NCBI RefSeq assembly: GCF_038594945.1 | Contig: NZ_JBCFYD010000002.1 | Location: 682,001-746,000 of the forward strand | From: Fodinibius sp. Rm-B-1B1-1 | Lineage (GTDB): Bacteria; Bacteroidota; Rhodothermia; Balneolales; Balneolaceae | DNA: 64,000 nt | Direction: 5' to 3' | Part shown: positions 8,815 through 15,233 of the stretch, in pieces | How positions within the stretch are numbered: position 1 is the first letter of the stretch | Layout of the letters: every line of letters starts with the position of its first letter | Position numbers and translations under genes: made by a program | The notes under the pieces: generated by a model | What the model was told of the DNA's origin: nothing | Database searches by the model: none | Seen by the model: only the letters and a program-made list of their open reading frames with translations

Positions 8815-9831
8815 ATGAAAATTGCTATTCATCAAAAAAAGAATGATTTCAGCTCTAAATGGATAGAGTATTGTCAAAATAATGGTATAGATTATAAGAT
8901 TGTTAACTGTTATAGCAATAATATTATTGAGGAATTGCAGGAGTGTAATGCCTTAATGTGGCATTTTAATCAAGCTATCCCAGCTGATTATTTATTTGCT
9001 AAACAGCTTATTTTTGCATTAGAGGCTTCAGGAAAAAAAGTATTTCCAGATTTTTGTACCTCTTGGCATTTTGATGATAAAGTGGCTCAAAAATATCTAT
9101 TAGAAGCTATAGGAGCCCCTTTGGTTCCTACCTATGTTTTTTATGATAAGACAGAAGCACTAAGTTGGGTTGAGCAAACCACCTTTCCTAAGGTTTTTAA
9201 ATTACGTCATGGAGCAGGATCGGCACACGTAAAATTGATAGAAAGTAGTAAGGATGCGAGAAAAATAATTCATAGAGCATTTAGCCGGGGTTTTAGTCAA
9301 TATGATAAAATAGCGAGTATTAAAGATCGTTTGTATAAGTTTAGAAATGGAAAGAACAGTTGGTGGAATGTAATTAAAGGAGTATTACGTTTGGCTAAAA
9401 CTACTCAATTCGCCAAAATCGCAGGTAATGAAAGAGGATATGTATATTTTCAAGACTTTATACCTCAAAATGACTATGATATCCGTGTAATAGTGATTGC
9501 AGGTAAGGCTTTTGCTATCAAGCGACTGACTCGAGAAGGGGACTTTCGAGCTTCAGGAAGTGGACATGTTTTATACGAGAAAAAACATTTTGACGAAGAA
9601 TTAATACAACAATCTTTTGAAATTGCTGATCAGTTAAAAAGTCAATGTTTAGCTATAGATTATGTATATGATGGGGCAAAGCCGATGGTTGTTGAAATTA
9701 GTTATGGATTTATTAAAGAAGTTTATTATTCCTGTGAAGGTTATTGGGATAGAAATTTAAATTGGAATCCTGGATCTTTTGATGCCCAGGGATGGATGGT
9801 TGAAAGTCTTTTAGAAAAAGTCGTAAAATAA
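8815..9831 (+). CDS. ATP-grasp protein, RimK-like
   Basis: This 338-residue protein has a RimK/glutathione-synthase-like layout. A small N-terminal domain is followed by the ATP-binding KVFKLRHGAGSAHV loop, the DFIPQNDYDIRVIVIAG strand and a terminal VVEISYGFI metal-binding segment. It should form an acyl-phosphate and ligate it to an amine. A GAGGTGA Shine-Dalgarno precedes the ATG. It sits next to another ATP-grasp gene and a CE4-like gene, so the three may form one decoration module. The downstream LRR gene starts 5 bp after the stop. Confidence 0.75.
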   Translation: MKIAIHQKKNDFSSKWIEYCQNNGIDYKIVNCYSNNIIEELQECNALMWHFNQAIPADYLFAKQLIFALEASGKKVFPDFCTSWHFDDKVAQKYLLEAIGAPLVPTYVFYDKTEALSWVEQTTFPKVFKLRHGAGSAHVKLIESSKDARKIIHRAFSRGFSQYDKIASIKDRLYKFRNGKNSWWNVIKGVLRLAKTTQFAKIAGNERGYVYFQDFIPQNDYDIRVIVIAGKAFAIKRLTREGDFRASGSGHVLYEKKHFDEELIQQSFEIADQLKSQCLAIDYVYDGAKPMVVEISYGFIKEVYYSCEGYWDRNLNWNPGSFDAQGWMVESLLEKVVK

Positions 9832-9836
9832 AAACA

Positions 9837-11195
9837 TTGATAAAGTATCCACTCATCATATTAATATTTGGGGTTTGTCTTTCATTTTTAGTCGAAATAA
9901 AAACCTTTGAAGACTCCATAGAAGGAGATCGTCAGGCGCTGATGGACTTATATGAAGCGACGGGCGGCACAGGCTGGCACAACGACAGTGGTTGGGGTAG
10001 TGGAAATCCCGACAACAGCTGGCACGGTATTGAGGTTGACGGCCAGGGACGAGTTGTGGAAGTCAACTTGCGTAGCAATGGTCTGCAGGGGGAGCTCCCG
10101 GAAAGCCTTGGAAACCTTACAAAGGTTACTTATTTCAATGTAAAGCAGAACCGGTTGTCAGGAACGCTTCCGTGGAATGGAATTGGGAATATGACCAGTC
10201 TGCAATATTTGCTATTAAATGGTCGAACGGTTGATCCAAGGCCTAATGAGGCTTATCACCATCCTGGGAAAGATCTGAGTGGAAGTTATTCTGACGAGAG
10301 AACGAATGATTTTACTGGATCAATGGGAGCCCAGGTTGGAAACTTGTCAAATTTGATCCATTTAGAATTGATGGGAGTGAATTCTGATCATACGGGATTA
10401 ACAGGTCCTATTCCAAAGGAGATAGGGAAACTAACTAAACTTGAAGGGCTATTTTTGAGTTACAATAGTTTTGATTCTCTACCCACGTCAATGAGTAATC
10501 TGACTAATTTATATCAATTTGGCATTATCGAAAGTAAGTTAACTGGAGAGTTGCCTTCTTGGATAGCAAATTGGACAAAGTTGAAATATTTACTAATTGA
10601 AGACAACGGTTTCTCTGGTTCAATTCCTGATCTAAGCAATTTATCTGATTTGCAAGCCTTTATTGCTAAAAAGAATGCATTTACCGGTGAAATCCCCAGG
10701 TATTTTTTCGATGGTACGATGCCAAAAATTAACATGGTTGACTTAGGTTTTAACGAACTGACAGGAACTCTGCCAGAATTTGGGACGCCCAATAATCTAA
10801 AGGCTTTACAGTTAGATGGTAATCAGTTAACGGGCAAGGTGCCAGAGTCGGTAAAAAATATAGATAGTATCAAGAACTTTGGATTGGGATGGAATAATTT
10901 AGAAGGGCAGATTCCTGACTTATCCAATCTACACCAGCTTCGGTATCTGCGAGCCAATGACAACAATTTTACTGGGGCTCCCCCGATGGTGGATACATCA
11001 AATGGAGATTTACAGTTTATTCATCTGCAAGAGAATAACTTATCTGGAGAAGTGCCTAAAGATTTGTCTAAACTTGCCTACCTGCCAAAGTTTAAAGAAA
11101 TAGACCTAAGAAATAACAATTTTTCCGATTCTGATGTCGAGCTATTGATGGAAGAGCTAACCAAAATGGGGAAGACTGATCTGCTTAGATATTAA
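9837..11195 (+). CDS. Leucine-rich-repeat secreted protein (copy A of a duplicated LRR module)
   Basis: This 452-residue protein starts at TTG. A hydrophobic N-terminus (residues 4-19) looks like a signal peptide or anchor. It is followed by an N-cap (DRQALMDLYEATGGTGWHN) and about a dozen LRRs of the plant-like LxGxIP class through to the C-terminus. Bases 9919-11017 are essentially identical to 12912-14010 of the next gene, with one mismatch seen (9932/12925). The ends differ, so it encodes its own signal region and last repeats. It lacks the FN3-like domains of the other copy. It lies 5 bp after the ATP-grasp gene and has no promoter of its own. A surface-exposed, protein- or glycan-binding role is inferred. 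Confidence 0.75.
   Translation: MIKYPLIILIFGVCLSFLVEIKTFEDSIEGDRQALMDLYEATGGTGWHNDSGWGSGNPDNSWHGIEVDGQGRVVEVNLRSNGLQGELPESLGNLTKVTYFNVKQNRLSGTLPWNGIGNMTSLQYLLLNGRTVDPRPNEAYHHPGKDLSGSYSDERTNDFTGSMGAQVGNLSNLIHLELMGVNSDHTGLTGPIPKEIGKLTKLEGLFLSYNSFDSLPTSMSNLTNLYQFGIIESKLTGELPSWIANWTKLKYLLIEDNGFSGSIPDLSNLSDLQAFIAKKNAFTGEIPRYFFDGTMPKINMVDLGFNELTGTLPEFGTPNNLKALQLDGNQLTGKVPESVKNIDSIKNFGLGWNNLEGQIPDLSNLHQLRYLRANDNNFTGAPPMVDTSNGDLQFIHLQENNLSGEVPKDLSKLAYLPKFKEIDLRNNNFSDSDVELLMEELTKMGKTDLLRY
9919..11017 (+). repeat. 1.1-kb direct repeat, copy A
   Basis: By direct reading this stretch matches 12912-14010 base for base at an offset of 2993, except at 9932 (T here, C in the other copy). Identity stops abruptly at both ends, at 9918 and 11018. 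Beyond those points the proteins are still related (the last ~50 residues align with many changes) but the DNA is clearly diverged. Confidence 0.95.
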
Positions 11196-11444
11196 GGATC
11201 GCTCACACGTTGATACAGCATATCCCTACATTTTTTTAATTGTTTAGCGTATTTATCTTTTCCATTCTACCTGTAGAAATAAAGCAAGGGCTATGTTTCC
11301 ATCTTTTTTTTACGAACAGAATTTACCATTTCCTGATATTTTTTTTGTAGTATCTTTCTCGAGTAGGCTTTTTCCCTTTCTTAATTTCTTGTGAGCCAAC
11401 CTATTATCCTCATCAAAGATTATATTAATAAAAATTAATATAAC

Positions 11445-11460
11445 TGGAACAATGGTTGTA
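11445..11460 (+). promoter_or_regulatory. Candidate sigma-54-like -24/-12 element (weaker)
   Basis: TGGAAC-N5-TTGTA has the correct GG-to-G spacing for a -24/-12 promoter but has A instead of C at the fourth -24 position. It is the weakest of the seven elements. A transcript would begin near 11471, giving a leader of about 130 nt before the LRR lipoprotein gene. Confidence 0.45.
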
Positions 11461-11541
11461 GGTTTGGGTATCAACTTCTTGTAATGGTTACCCCTAAATT
11501 ATTGTAATCATTATGTTTAAATGTCATCTATAGACGGCTTT

Positions 11542-11565
11542 CCAGAAGGTTACCCCACCTTCTGG
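11542..11565 (+). other. Leader hairpin upstream of the LRR lipoprotein gene
   Basis: A perfect 9-bp stem (CCAGAAGGT paired with ACCTTCTGG) surrounds the 6-nt loop TACCCC, and GGCCC follows. There is no T-run, so it is not a standard intrinsic terminator. It ends 37 nt before the ATG of the lipoprotein gene, inside the predicted 5' leader, and could influence stability or translation. Confidence 0.6.
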
Positions 11566-11602
11566 GCCCTCTCTACAAACCCCAAAAAGACTCATATTTA
11601 CC

Positions 11603-14188
11603 ATGAGATCAAAGATTCTATATCTCATAACGAGTATATTTTTGCTTGTTACTTTAACTCAATGCGAAGATTCTTTAACAATAACTGCAAATCAAAATCA
11701 AGACAACAATTTAGCCGAAGTTAGTTTAGCTTCCCCTGAAGATGGGTCCGATCAAAGTACTGCTGTATCTTTTGATTGGAGTCAACTCGAAGAAGCCGAT
11801 TCTTATGAATTCCAGCTCTCGGGAAATTCAGAATTCTCTTCTATAATAATAGATAGTTTAACAGAAGAAAATAGTTTCCAAGTTAAGGGACTCCCTTCTG
11901 ATACCATATTGTATTGGCAGGTTCGTCCTGTTATTGATGGTGAAGAAGGACCCTGGTCAGCAACATGGCAGTTTTTCACTCAGTCAACCTCAGAAGATTC
12001 TGAACCTTTGGCAACGGATTTAACCTCACCAAGTGACGGAGCATCTAAAAGTCCTTACTCAGTTAAATTTTCGTGGACTGCAATAGCGAGTGCTTCCGCC
12101 TATAACGTACAGGTAGCATCTGACCAAGAGTTTAGCTCTTTGATTATAGATAAAGAGGTGACGTCAAGTTCCTATGAAACTACTGATTTATCTGCAGAGC
12201 AGACCTTCTATTGGAAGGTTGAACCCGTTGTTTCTGGCAAAGAAACCCAATGGTCCGATGTATTTCAATTTTCTACACTTGCCGAGGGTGAAATTCCAGC
12301 TCCTGCACAACTATCTCCGAATGACGGAGCTACTGATGTTGCATTGCAACCTACTTTCGAATGGGAAGAAGTGGATGGTGCCGATTATTATATCCTGCAT
12401 GCCAACAGTATAGATCCTACAGAAATGGTGGTAGAAACGGAAGTGGAAGGAACAACCTTTACTCCAGAAAGTGATTTAGCTACACAAACAGATCACGACT
12501 GGAGAGTTCGAGCCGTTATCGGTGATACGCAGGGCGAATGGTCAGAAATTCACAGCTTTACTACTGGATCAGGAGGAAGCGATGATTCCAATGATTCATC
12601 TGTTTCATTGAATTCCCCATCTGATGGTTCCAGCTATCAATCTACCAACTTGACATTAGATTGGGAAACAGTATCAGGGGCAAATGAGTACCAAGTACAG
12701 GTTGCACAAGATAATTCATTTTCTTCTCCTGAAGTTGATACATACGTTAGTGAATCCTCTTACTCGGCATCTGGGCTGAATTATAATCAGACGTATTATT
12801 GGAGAGTTCAAGTGGATGGAGATGGCGATTCCCAAAATTGGTCTGCCATATATAGCTTTACAACTGAATCCGAATCCAGTAATAATGATAGCGGAGACTA
12901 TGCAAATTCTGTAGAAGGAGATCGCCAGGCGCTGATGGACTTATATGAAGCGACGGGCGGCACAGGCTGGCACAACGACAGTGGTTGGGGTAGTGGAAAT
13001 CCCGACAACAGCTGGCACGGTATTGAGGTTGACGGCCAGGGACGAGTTGTGGAAGTCAACTTGCGTAGCAATGGTCTGCAGGGGGAGCTCCCGGAAAGCC
13101 TTGGAAACCTTACAAAGGTTACTTATTTCAATGTAAAGCAGAACCGGTTGTCAGGAACGCTTCCGTGGAATGGAATTGGGAATATGACCAGTCTGCAATA
13201 TTTGCTATTAAATGGTCGAACGGTTGATCCAAGGCCTAATGAGGCTTATCACCATCCTGGGAAAGATCTGAGTGGAAGTTATTCTGACGAGAGAACGAAT
13301 GATTTTACTGGATCAATGGGAGCCCAGGTTGGAAACTTGTCAAATTTGATCCATTTAGAATTGATGGGAGTGAATTCTGATCATACGGGATTAACAGGTC
13401 CTATTCCAAAGGAGATAGGGAAACTAACTAAACTTGAAGGGCTATTTTTGAGTTACAATAGTTTTGATTCTCTACCCACGTCAATGAGTAATCTGACTAA
13501 TTTATATCAATTTGGCATTATCGAAAGTAAGTTAACTGGAGAGTTGCCTTCTTGGATAGCAAATTGGACAAAGTTGAAATATTTACTAATTGAAGACAAC
13601 GGTTTCTCTGGTTCAATTCCTGATCTAAGCAATTTATCTGATTTGCAAGCCTTTATTGCTAAAAAGAATGCATTTACCGGTGAAATCCCCAGGTATTTTT
13701 TCGATGGTACGATGCCAAAAATTAACATGGTTGACTTAGGTTTTAACGAACTGACAGGAACTCTGCCAGAATTTGGGACGCCCAATAATCTAAAGGCTTT
13801 ACAGTTAGATGGTAATCAGTTAACGGGCAAGGTGCCAGAGTCGGTAAAAAATATAGATAGTATCAAGAACTTTGGATTGGGATGGAATAATTTAGAAGGG
13901 CAGATTCCTGACTTATCCAATCTACACCAGCTTCGGTATCTGCGAGCCAATGACAACAATTTTACTGGGGCTCCCCCGATGGTGGATACATCAAATGGAG
14001 ATTTACAGTTCTTAGATTTTCGTGGCAACGAGTTGTCTGATCAGGTTGATGCTGATTTGGCCGAAGTTGGTAATCTACCAAAGTTCCGAGACTTGGATTT
14101 GAGAGCAAATTCATTATCAGATTCTGATTTAGATCCACTTATAAATGCACTTGAGGCGGATGGCAATCTGAATGTGCTAAGTTATTAA
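11603..14188 (+). CDS. Surface lipoprotein with four FN3-like domains and an LRR domain (copy B)
   Basis: This 861-residue protein begins with a lipoprotein signal peptide (LVTLTQC lipobox, Cys at about 21). Four FN3-like repeats of about 90 residues follow, each starting near an SPxDG motif and ending in a YWxV...W...FxT pattern (roughly 40-125, 135-225, 230-320, 335-420). The plant-like LRR domain covers about 440-861. The LRR part carries the 1.1-kb DNA repeat shared with 9837-11195. The protein is expected to be anchored in the outer membrane with an extended stalk that presents the LRR. It forms a single-gene unit with a candidate sigma-54-like element upstream and a strong terminator downstream. 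Confidence 0.85.
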   Translation: MRSKILYLITSIFLLVTLTQCEDSLTITANQNQDNNLAEVSLASPEDGSDQSTAVSFDWSQLEEADSYEFQLSGNSEFSSIIIDSLTEENSFQVKGLPSDTILYWQVRPVIDGEEGPWSATWQFFTQSTSEDSEPLATDLTSPSDGASKSPYSVKFSWTAIASASAYNVQVASDQEFSSLIIDKEVTSSSYETTDLSAEQTFYWKVEPVVSGKETQWSDVFQFSTLAEGEIPAPAQLSPNDGATDVALQPTFEWEEVDGADYYILHANSIDPTEMVVETEVEGTTFTPESDLATQTDHDWRVRAVIGDTQGEWSEIHSFTTGSGGSDDSNDSSVSLNSPSDGSSYQSTNLTLDWETVSGANEYQVQVAQDNSFSSPEVDTYVSESSYSASGLNYNQTYYWRVQVDGDGDSQNWSAIYSFTTESESSNNDSGDYANSVEGDRQALMDLYEATGGTGWHNDSGWGSGNPDNSWHGIEVDGQGRVVEVNLRSNGLQGELPESLGNLTKVTYFNVKQNRLSGTLPWNGIGNMTSLQYLLLNGRTVDPRPNEAYHHPGKDLSGSYSDERTNDFTGSMGAQVGNLSNLIHLELMGVNSDHTGLTGPIPKEIGKLTKLEGLFLSYNSFDSLPTSMSNLTNLYQFGIIESKLTGELPSWIANWTKLKYLLIEDNGFSGSIPDLSNLSDLQAFIAKKNAFTGEIPRYFFDGTMPKINMVDLGFNELTGTLPEFGTPNNLKALQLDGNQLTGKVPESVKNIDSIKNFGLGWNNLEGQIPDLSNLHQLRYLRANDNNFTGAPPMVDTSNGDLQFLDFRGNELSDQVDADLAEVGNLPKFRDLDLRANSLSDSDLDPLINALEADGNLNVLSY
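12912..14010 (+). repeat. 1.1-kb direct repeat, copy B
   Basis: This is the partner of 9919-11017 at an offset of 2993 bp. It lies wholly inside the LRR part of the lipoprotein gene. One mismatch was seen (12925) and the boundary of identity at 14010/14011 is abrupt. Confidence 0.95.
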
Positions 14189-14214
14189 TTTTAATTACAT
14201 ATACTTTTAAAGTA

Positions 14215-14246
14215 GAGGAAGCACTTTTGGGTGCTTCCTCTTTTTA
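14215..14246 (+). terminator. Rho-independent terminator after the LRR lipoprotein gene
   Basis: A 10-bp perfect stem (GAGGAAGCAC with GTGCTTCCTC) and a 6-nt loop are followed by a T-rich run. It starts 27 bp after the stop codon at 14188. Confidence 0.95.
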
Positions 14247-14549: not shown

Positions 14550-15233
14550 ATGAGTACAAATAAAAAGTTGGTTGTGATTTGGTGTTTGGTTGCATCGATC
14601 ATGTTTATGGCTTGTGAAAATCCTTTAACGGGCAACAAAGATGACAGAAAACCTGATCTGGGTGAATCCCTTACTCCAATTGAAGAAATGAGTTTGATTG
14701 AAGGGGCAGAGAGTGCAACGTTGACTATCAATATAAATGGGGCAAAGAAGGCTTATTTTAATATCGAATTCTCCAATATTGGATCTAATAAAATTATTGA
14801 TAATGAGTTAAAAGATGGTTGGTGTATTGATGTTTGGAAATCTATAGACAGCAATGATGGAGTATATACGAATATCAAGTTGTACTCTACTCATCTTGTT
14901 GAACAATGGAAACCGGTAAACTATTTGCTTAATGTCCAGCAGGCGTTAAGAAATAATGATCCCCAAATAACATGGCTGGAAATCCAACTGGTTATTTGGT
15001 CATTACGGGCCTATCCCGAATTTGATCTGGAAACTACCTCTATAGAAAACTTGCCCGGACAGTTTCGGAAAGATGGGAAAGCTTTATTCAGTTATGAGAA
15101 GGTATATGAAATCCTGGATTTTGTTGAAGCAAATTATAAGAGCTTCAACTTTGATCAAAATGGGGCAAAGTTTGCCGTGGTAGCTGAAATGCCGATTGAT
15201 GTTCAAACTGTTATTACTATCGCCGAAAAATAA
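14550..15233 (+). CDS. Small lipoprotein resembling a Cys-Gln thioester domain
   Basis: This 227-residue protein has a lipoprotein signal (FMAC lipobox, Cys at about 25). I do not recognise a named family with certainty. The mature part contains GWCIDVWKSI (Cys near 93), then VNYLLN, then LEIQLVIWSL (Gln near 150). This arrangement resembles thioester-domain surface proteins, in which a Cys and a Gln of a TQxxIW-type motif form an internal thioester. In that family the bond captures amines on target surfaces. It is the first gene of a sigma-54-like operon and is followed 5 bp later by a GT4 gene, so it is co-expressed with glycan synthesis. The thioester assignment is a hypothesis. Confidence 0.55.
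   Translation: MSTNKKLVVIWCLVASIMFMACENPLTGNKDDRKPDLGESLTPIEEMSLIEGAESATLTININGAKKAYFNIEFSNIGSNKIIDNELKDGWCIDVWKSIDSNDGVYTNIKLYSTHLVEQWKPVNYLLNVQQALRNNDPQITWLEIQLVIWSLRAYPEFDLETTSIENLPGQFRKDGKALFSYEKVYEILDFVEANYKSFNFDQNGAKFAVVAEMPIDVQTVITIAEK

Follow-up and report, generated by a model that had tools for sequence, protein, structure and literature searches.

The DNA analysed here is a stretch of 64,000 nucleotides (the window) from Fodinibius sp. Rm-B-1B1-1, a member of the family Balneolaceae with an assembly of 3.41 Mb (G000). Two neighboring LRR genes, a short gene (S) and a long gene (L), are located in a polysaccharide locus. The locus encodes a NAD-dependent epimerase, glycosyltransferases of family 2 and group 1, a sugar-transfer ATP-grasp protein, a bacterial sugar transferase, and polysaccharide synthesis and chain-length proteins. 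S begins with a TTG start codon 5 bp past the stop codon of the RimK-like ATP-grasp gene. A promoter scan gave no more matches than expected by chance. The features of the locus are summarized in Table 1.

Table 1. Features of the S/L locus (positions are those of the window)
Feature	Positions	Strand	Remarks
RimK-like ATP-grasp gene	8815..9831	+	constant upstream neighbor
Short gene S, 452 aa	9837..11195	+	hydrophobic N-terminal signal sequence, then LRR module
Identical tract, copy 1 (in S)	9919..11017	+	1 mismatch in 1099 against copy 2
Unconverted 3' tail of S, 58 codons	11018..11195	+	homologous to tail of L, diverged
Long gene L, 861 aa	11603..14188	+	LRR module C-terminal
Leader and fn3-like stalk of L	11603..12911	+	matches to Pfam fn3, Ig_Rha78A_N and Pur_ac_phosph_N
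Identical tract, copy 2 (in L)	12912..14010	+	offset 2993 from copy 1
Unconverted 3' tail of L, 58 codons	14011..14188	+	homologous to tail of S, diverged
Terminator-like hairpin after L	14214..14241	+	12-bp stem, then T run
227-aa lipoprotein	14550..15233	+	downstream neighbor in most species

The leader of L is lipoprotein-like and ends with LVTLTQC. The stalk behind it is built from about four fibronectin-III/Ig-like repeats; leader and stalk together comprise about 430 residues and have no counterpart in S. A secreted short form and a stalked lipoprotein form, as proposed in a preliminary description of this DNA, are thereby backed by the sequences of S and L. The layout of leader and stalk is common to all seven L proteins seen. 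Across the species the size of leader and stalk ranges from about 340 to 650 residues, set by the number of fn3-like repeats. Repeats within a single stalk can reach 81-91% identity at the DNA level in F. sediminis DSM 21194 (G001) and F. salsisoli (G007), and judging from these sequences the stalk may recombine internally, too. In all seven long genes, L of the window included, glutamine precedes the cysteine of the presumed lipobox; the residue in this position is usually glycine, alanine or serine.

S matches the Pfam families LRR_14 (2.9e-19), LRR_1 (1.7e-18) and also LRR_8. Structure prediction yields an LRR solenoid with a pLDDT of 85, and a Foldseek search with this model retrieves plant LRR ectodomains (E 3e-19). 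The LRR module is therefore predicted, from sequence and model, to be a plant-type LRR solenoid. By both sequence and structure search, fold and repeat consensus resemble those of the plant ectodomains FLS2 (4mna), MIK2 (8wei) and ERL2 (5xkn), whereas S and L are without kinase or transmembrane part, and the likeness is limited to the repeat. Candidate assignments to the internalins or to the Xop effectors were rejected: NCBIfam scores of 66 bits for XopAE (cut-off 600) and 31 for InlA (cut-off 1600) are far below the cut-offs, so that no membership is claimed and the repeat alone is shared.

The two copies of the tract differ only at position 9932 (CGT/CGC), a silent change as both codons encode arginine; the extent of the copies and the single mismatch had been given correctly in the preliminary description. 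In a codon alignment of S and L of 1266 bp with 82 mismatches overall, the longest exact run spans 1085 bp, for which the chance would be about 1e-76 if the mismatches were scattered randomly. Upstream of the tract S and L are unrelated, with a short signal sequence in S and leader and stalk in L. Downstream the tails share 23 of 58 residues (40%) and 94 of 174 nucleotides, with an NG86 dN of 0.54 and a dS of about 2.35, that is, with saturated silent sites. The diverged ends noticed earlier are thus borne out on both sides. In a comparison with other species neither tail of G000, that of S or that of L, was matched to a particular orthologue, as both are too short and diverged for this. Further LRR cassettes, for which a search had been suggested, were not found: the 3.41-Mb assembly holds no third copy of the module, and both copies reside in intact genes. 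Over its first 200 bp (9919-10130 and 12912-13123) the module has a G+C content of 54-59%, compared with about 40% window-wide, and this portion encodes its best conserved part.

A single-sequence scan of genome contigs delivered no match, and an alignment scan led to six relatives. The comparison is based on assemblies, with one genome per species. Pairs are fully assembled in six species, namely G000, F. sediminis (G001), two metagenome-assembled genomes of the genus Fodinibius (G004 and G009), G010, and F. roseus DSM 21986 (G011). In the five species other than G000 the pair is located in the same polysaccharide locus. The RimK-like ATP-grasp gene is present in eight of 12 Fodinibius genomes, exactly those with this LRR gene family.

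A long identical tract occurs in five of the six resolved species, with differing right-hand ends. In F. sediminis the modules of S and L are 100% identical over 1319 bp, past the stop codon and on through a hairpin that resembles a terminator, and in G004 they are 99.9% identical over 1231 bp. G010 shows an exact match of 1139 bp followed by 17 mismatches near the 3' end, and F. roseus an exact match of 754 bp followed by 51-70% identity per 60-bp bin (about 65%). In G009 identity is 70% throughout (60-bp bins 51-83%). The left edges of the tracts coincide with the start of the module, whereas the right edges lie within the gene, near the stop codon or beyond the terminator. Diverged homologous sequence follows the sharp tract ends in G000, G010 and F. 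roseus, and is absent from F. sediminis and G004. Two further species have a break within the module, an N gap in F. salsisoli and a contig end in Aliifodinibius salipaludis (G002), as is expected if an identical pair collapsed in assembly.

Between species the module proteins are 38-55% identical, except that G004 and F. roseus share about 70%, and silent sites are mostly saturated (NG86 returns no value). Amino acid identity is 72-100% for the pairs within genomes versus 38-72% between species, and in a tree of the whole module S and L are sisters in all six species. In the first half of the module S of F. roseus is 99% identical to L of the same genome, whereas its unconverted half shares 71% with G004 and 65% with its own L; the fork of F. 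roseus S, F. roseus L and G004 is left unresolved in the second-half tree. Homogenization does not extend to further tandem paralogues of these loci, such as the ATP-grasp genes of G009 (65%) and a tandem pair of F. sediminis (77%). The gene order is S-L in G000, G004 and G009, and L-S in F. sediminis, G010 and F. roseus. G004 and F. roseus have the most similar modules, yet the opposite order.

The two modules of a genome are homogenized with each other. With good confidence we regard S and L as old paralogues in the polysaccharide locus whose modules have repeatedly been made alike by gene conversion between neighboring direct repeats. On sequence grounds it is strongly supported that recurrent conversion fits far better than a single recent duplication or an artefact. 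A single recent duplication would have left tails that are equally young, and the saturated tails of G000 argue against it. Because F. roseus S is nearer to G004 than to its own L in the unconverted half, the pair appears to date back to about the split of these species, or to before it. The recent conversion postulated in the preliminary description is strongly backed and moreover recurrent: the comparison of both copies, proposed there for strains and made here between species, finds the pattern in five of six resolved species, with a sharp mosaic boundary retained in F. roseus. Modules diverging at normal rates in relatives, which had been named as evidence to the contrary, occur in G009 and, over half of the module, in F. 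roseus; they are not seen in the other species. From general knowledge, the process would be ordinary RecA-type conversion between direct repeats 3 kb apart, with its left limit at the edge of homology. Conversion alone is insufficient to produce both gene orders, S-L and L-S, and further rearrangement would have to accompany it.

Alternatively, S could have been formed anew in each species when the LRR module of L was partially duplicated not long ago, and the identity would then be due to young age, not to conversion. Such birth and death would agree with the variation of the signal peptides of S and of the S/L order between species, and with identity that reaches or passes the stop codon in F. 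sediminis and G004. Because neither of these two genomes has a diverged tail, they could, taken alone, be recent duplications. We nevertheless hold birth and death to be unlikely. Diverged homologous tails lie beside the identical tracts in G000, where they are saturated, in G010 and in F. roseus, and the tail half of F. roseus dates from about the time of its separation from G004. Furthermore, a partial tandem copy would bring neither signal peptide nor start codon, and a species of another genus (G092) likewise has a short gene that consists of LRRs only and is 64% identical to its larger LRR partner.

That one module was collapsed by the assembler and then printed twice is very improbable. 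The breaks within the module in F. salsisoli and A. salipaludis are in line with this, and bubble removal by the assembler could mask a few real differences, but the copies differ in their flanks on both sides within one contig of 1.59 Mb, the pattern recurs with other end points in five separately assembled genomes, and diverged portions were kept in F. roseus and G010. Users of short-read assemblies should be aware that these break, or may over-smooth, at the S/L locus. The preliminary description had suggested that the module may be swapped as in antigenic or adhesin variation. Cassette switching of this kind, in which expressed and stored copies trade the LRR module, would suit the surface-exposed architecture and the recombining repeat, but is hardly credible: the genome holds two copies, both in intact genes, and without silent donor cassettes antigenic switching is unsupported, and the effect is a homogenization that makes S and L alike and generates no variants. 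The module may be exchanged with other strains.

If recurrent conversion is accepted, selection could favor it where the secreted S and the surface-anchored L need to present one common ligand-binding LRR surface. Both might, for instance, bind the same exopolysaccharide or partner, with soluble S bridging or modulating what L holds. Tentatively, and with considerable doubt, we suggest that secreted S and anchored L are a matched pair for recognition, in which both would have to carry a common species-specific LRR surface and which conversion keeps in step as the module diverges between species. Such a pair could be, for example, a kin- or matrix-recognition system tied to the exopolysaccharide from the surrounding genes, with S and L as ligand and receptor or as matrix linker and cell anchor. 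Positions on the concave face of the solenoid are no more variable between species than other exposed positions (identity 0.34 versus 0.36) and give no direct sign of ligand-driven diversification.

A literature search found no work on LRR genes of Fodinibius. The S/L pair is an unusually well-documented further case of conversion between tandem paralogues, for which the closest parallels, by analogy and with no relation by descent claimed, would be ligA/ligB of Leptospira and the mammalian TLR1/TLR6. The tandem surface-protein genes ligA and ligB are nearly identical from -266 to about +1890 and diverged in the rest, and upkeep of the identity by gene conversion is inferred in a review (PMC7821625). 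As in S/L, a single near-identical segment of tandem surface-protein genes adjoins a diverged remainder. However, the Lig proteins consist of Ig-like (Big_2) domains, their shared part is N-terminal and the upstream region is identical, whereas S and L share a C-terminal LRR module and have unrelated leaders. In TLR1/TLR6 of nine mammalian species a segment is closer between paralogues than between orthologues, due to independent conversions which were attributed to shared binding partners (PMC2077338). Tandem LRR genes with a segment closer to the paralogue than to the orthologue are common to both systems, but TLR1/TLR6 are vertebrate receptors in which conversion covers LRR 16-19, the transmembrane and the TIR parts. 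Identical adhesin modules are also common to the gingipain and HagA surface-protein genes of Porphyromonas gingivalis, where assemblies break (PMC5266723). Identical modules in separate surface-protein genes and assembly breaks within them are shared with S/L; the gingipain/HagA modules occur in many copies with combinatorial rearrangement among strains, whereas S/L has just two copies.

The six species provide a natural conversion series within one bacterial genus, with the whole module converted, a diverged tail, half a module, or a long unconverted pair. The series belongs to a polysaccharide locus. It makes the length and direction of tracts, and the selective grounds on which a secreted and an anchored protein are kept matched, testable in culturable environmental halophiles.

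The 227-aa lipoprotein downstream of L has no match in Pfam or NCBIfam. Relatives of this protein occur in ten of the 12 genomes of the genus and are often multicopy in related genera. The gene mostly adjoins LRR genes; it is distant from them in G010 and lies outside any polysaccharide locus in G008. Other genera of the Balneolaceae possess a related LRR protein, usually single, near similar ATP-grasp genes, and from its sequence this protein looks like it ends in a type IX secretion sorting tail. In G092 the larger of the two LRR genes carries a sorting-like tail; the genes are located on two contigs, with many degenerate repeats beside them.
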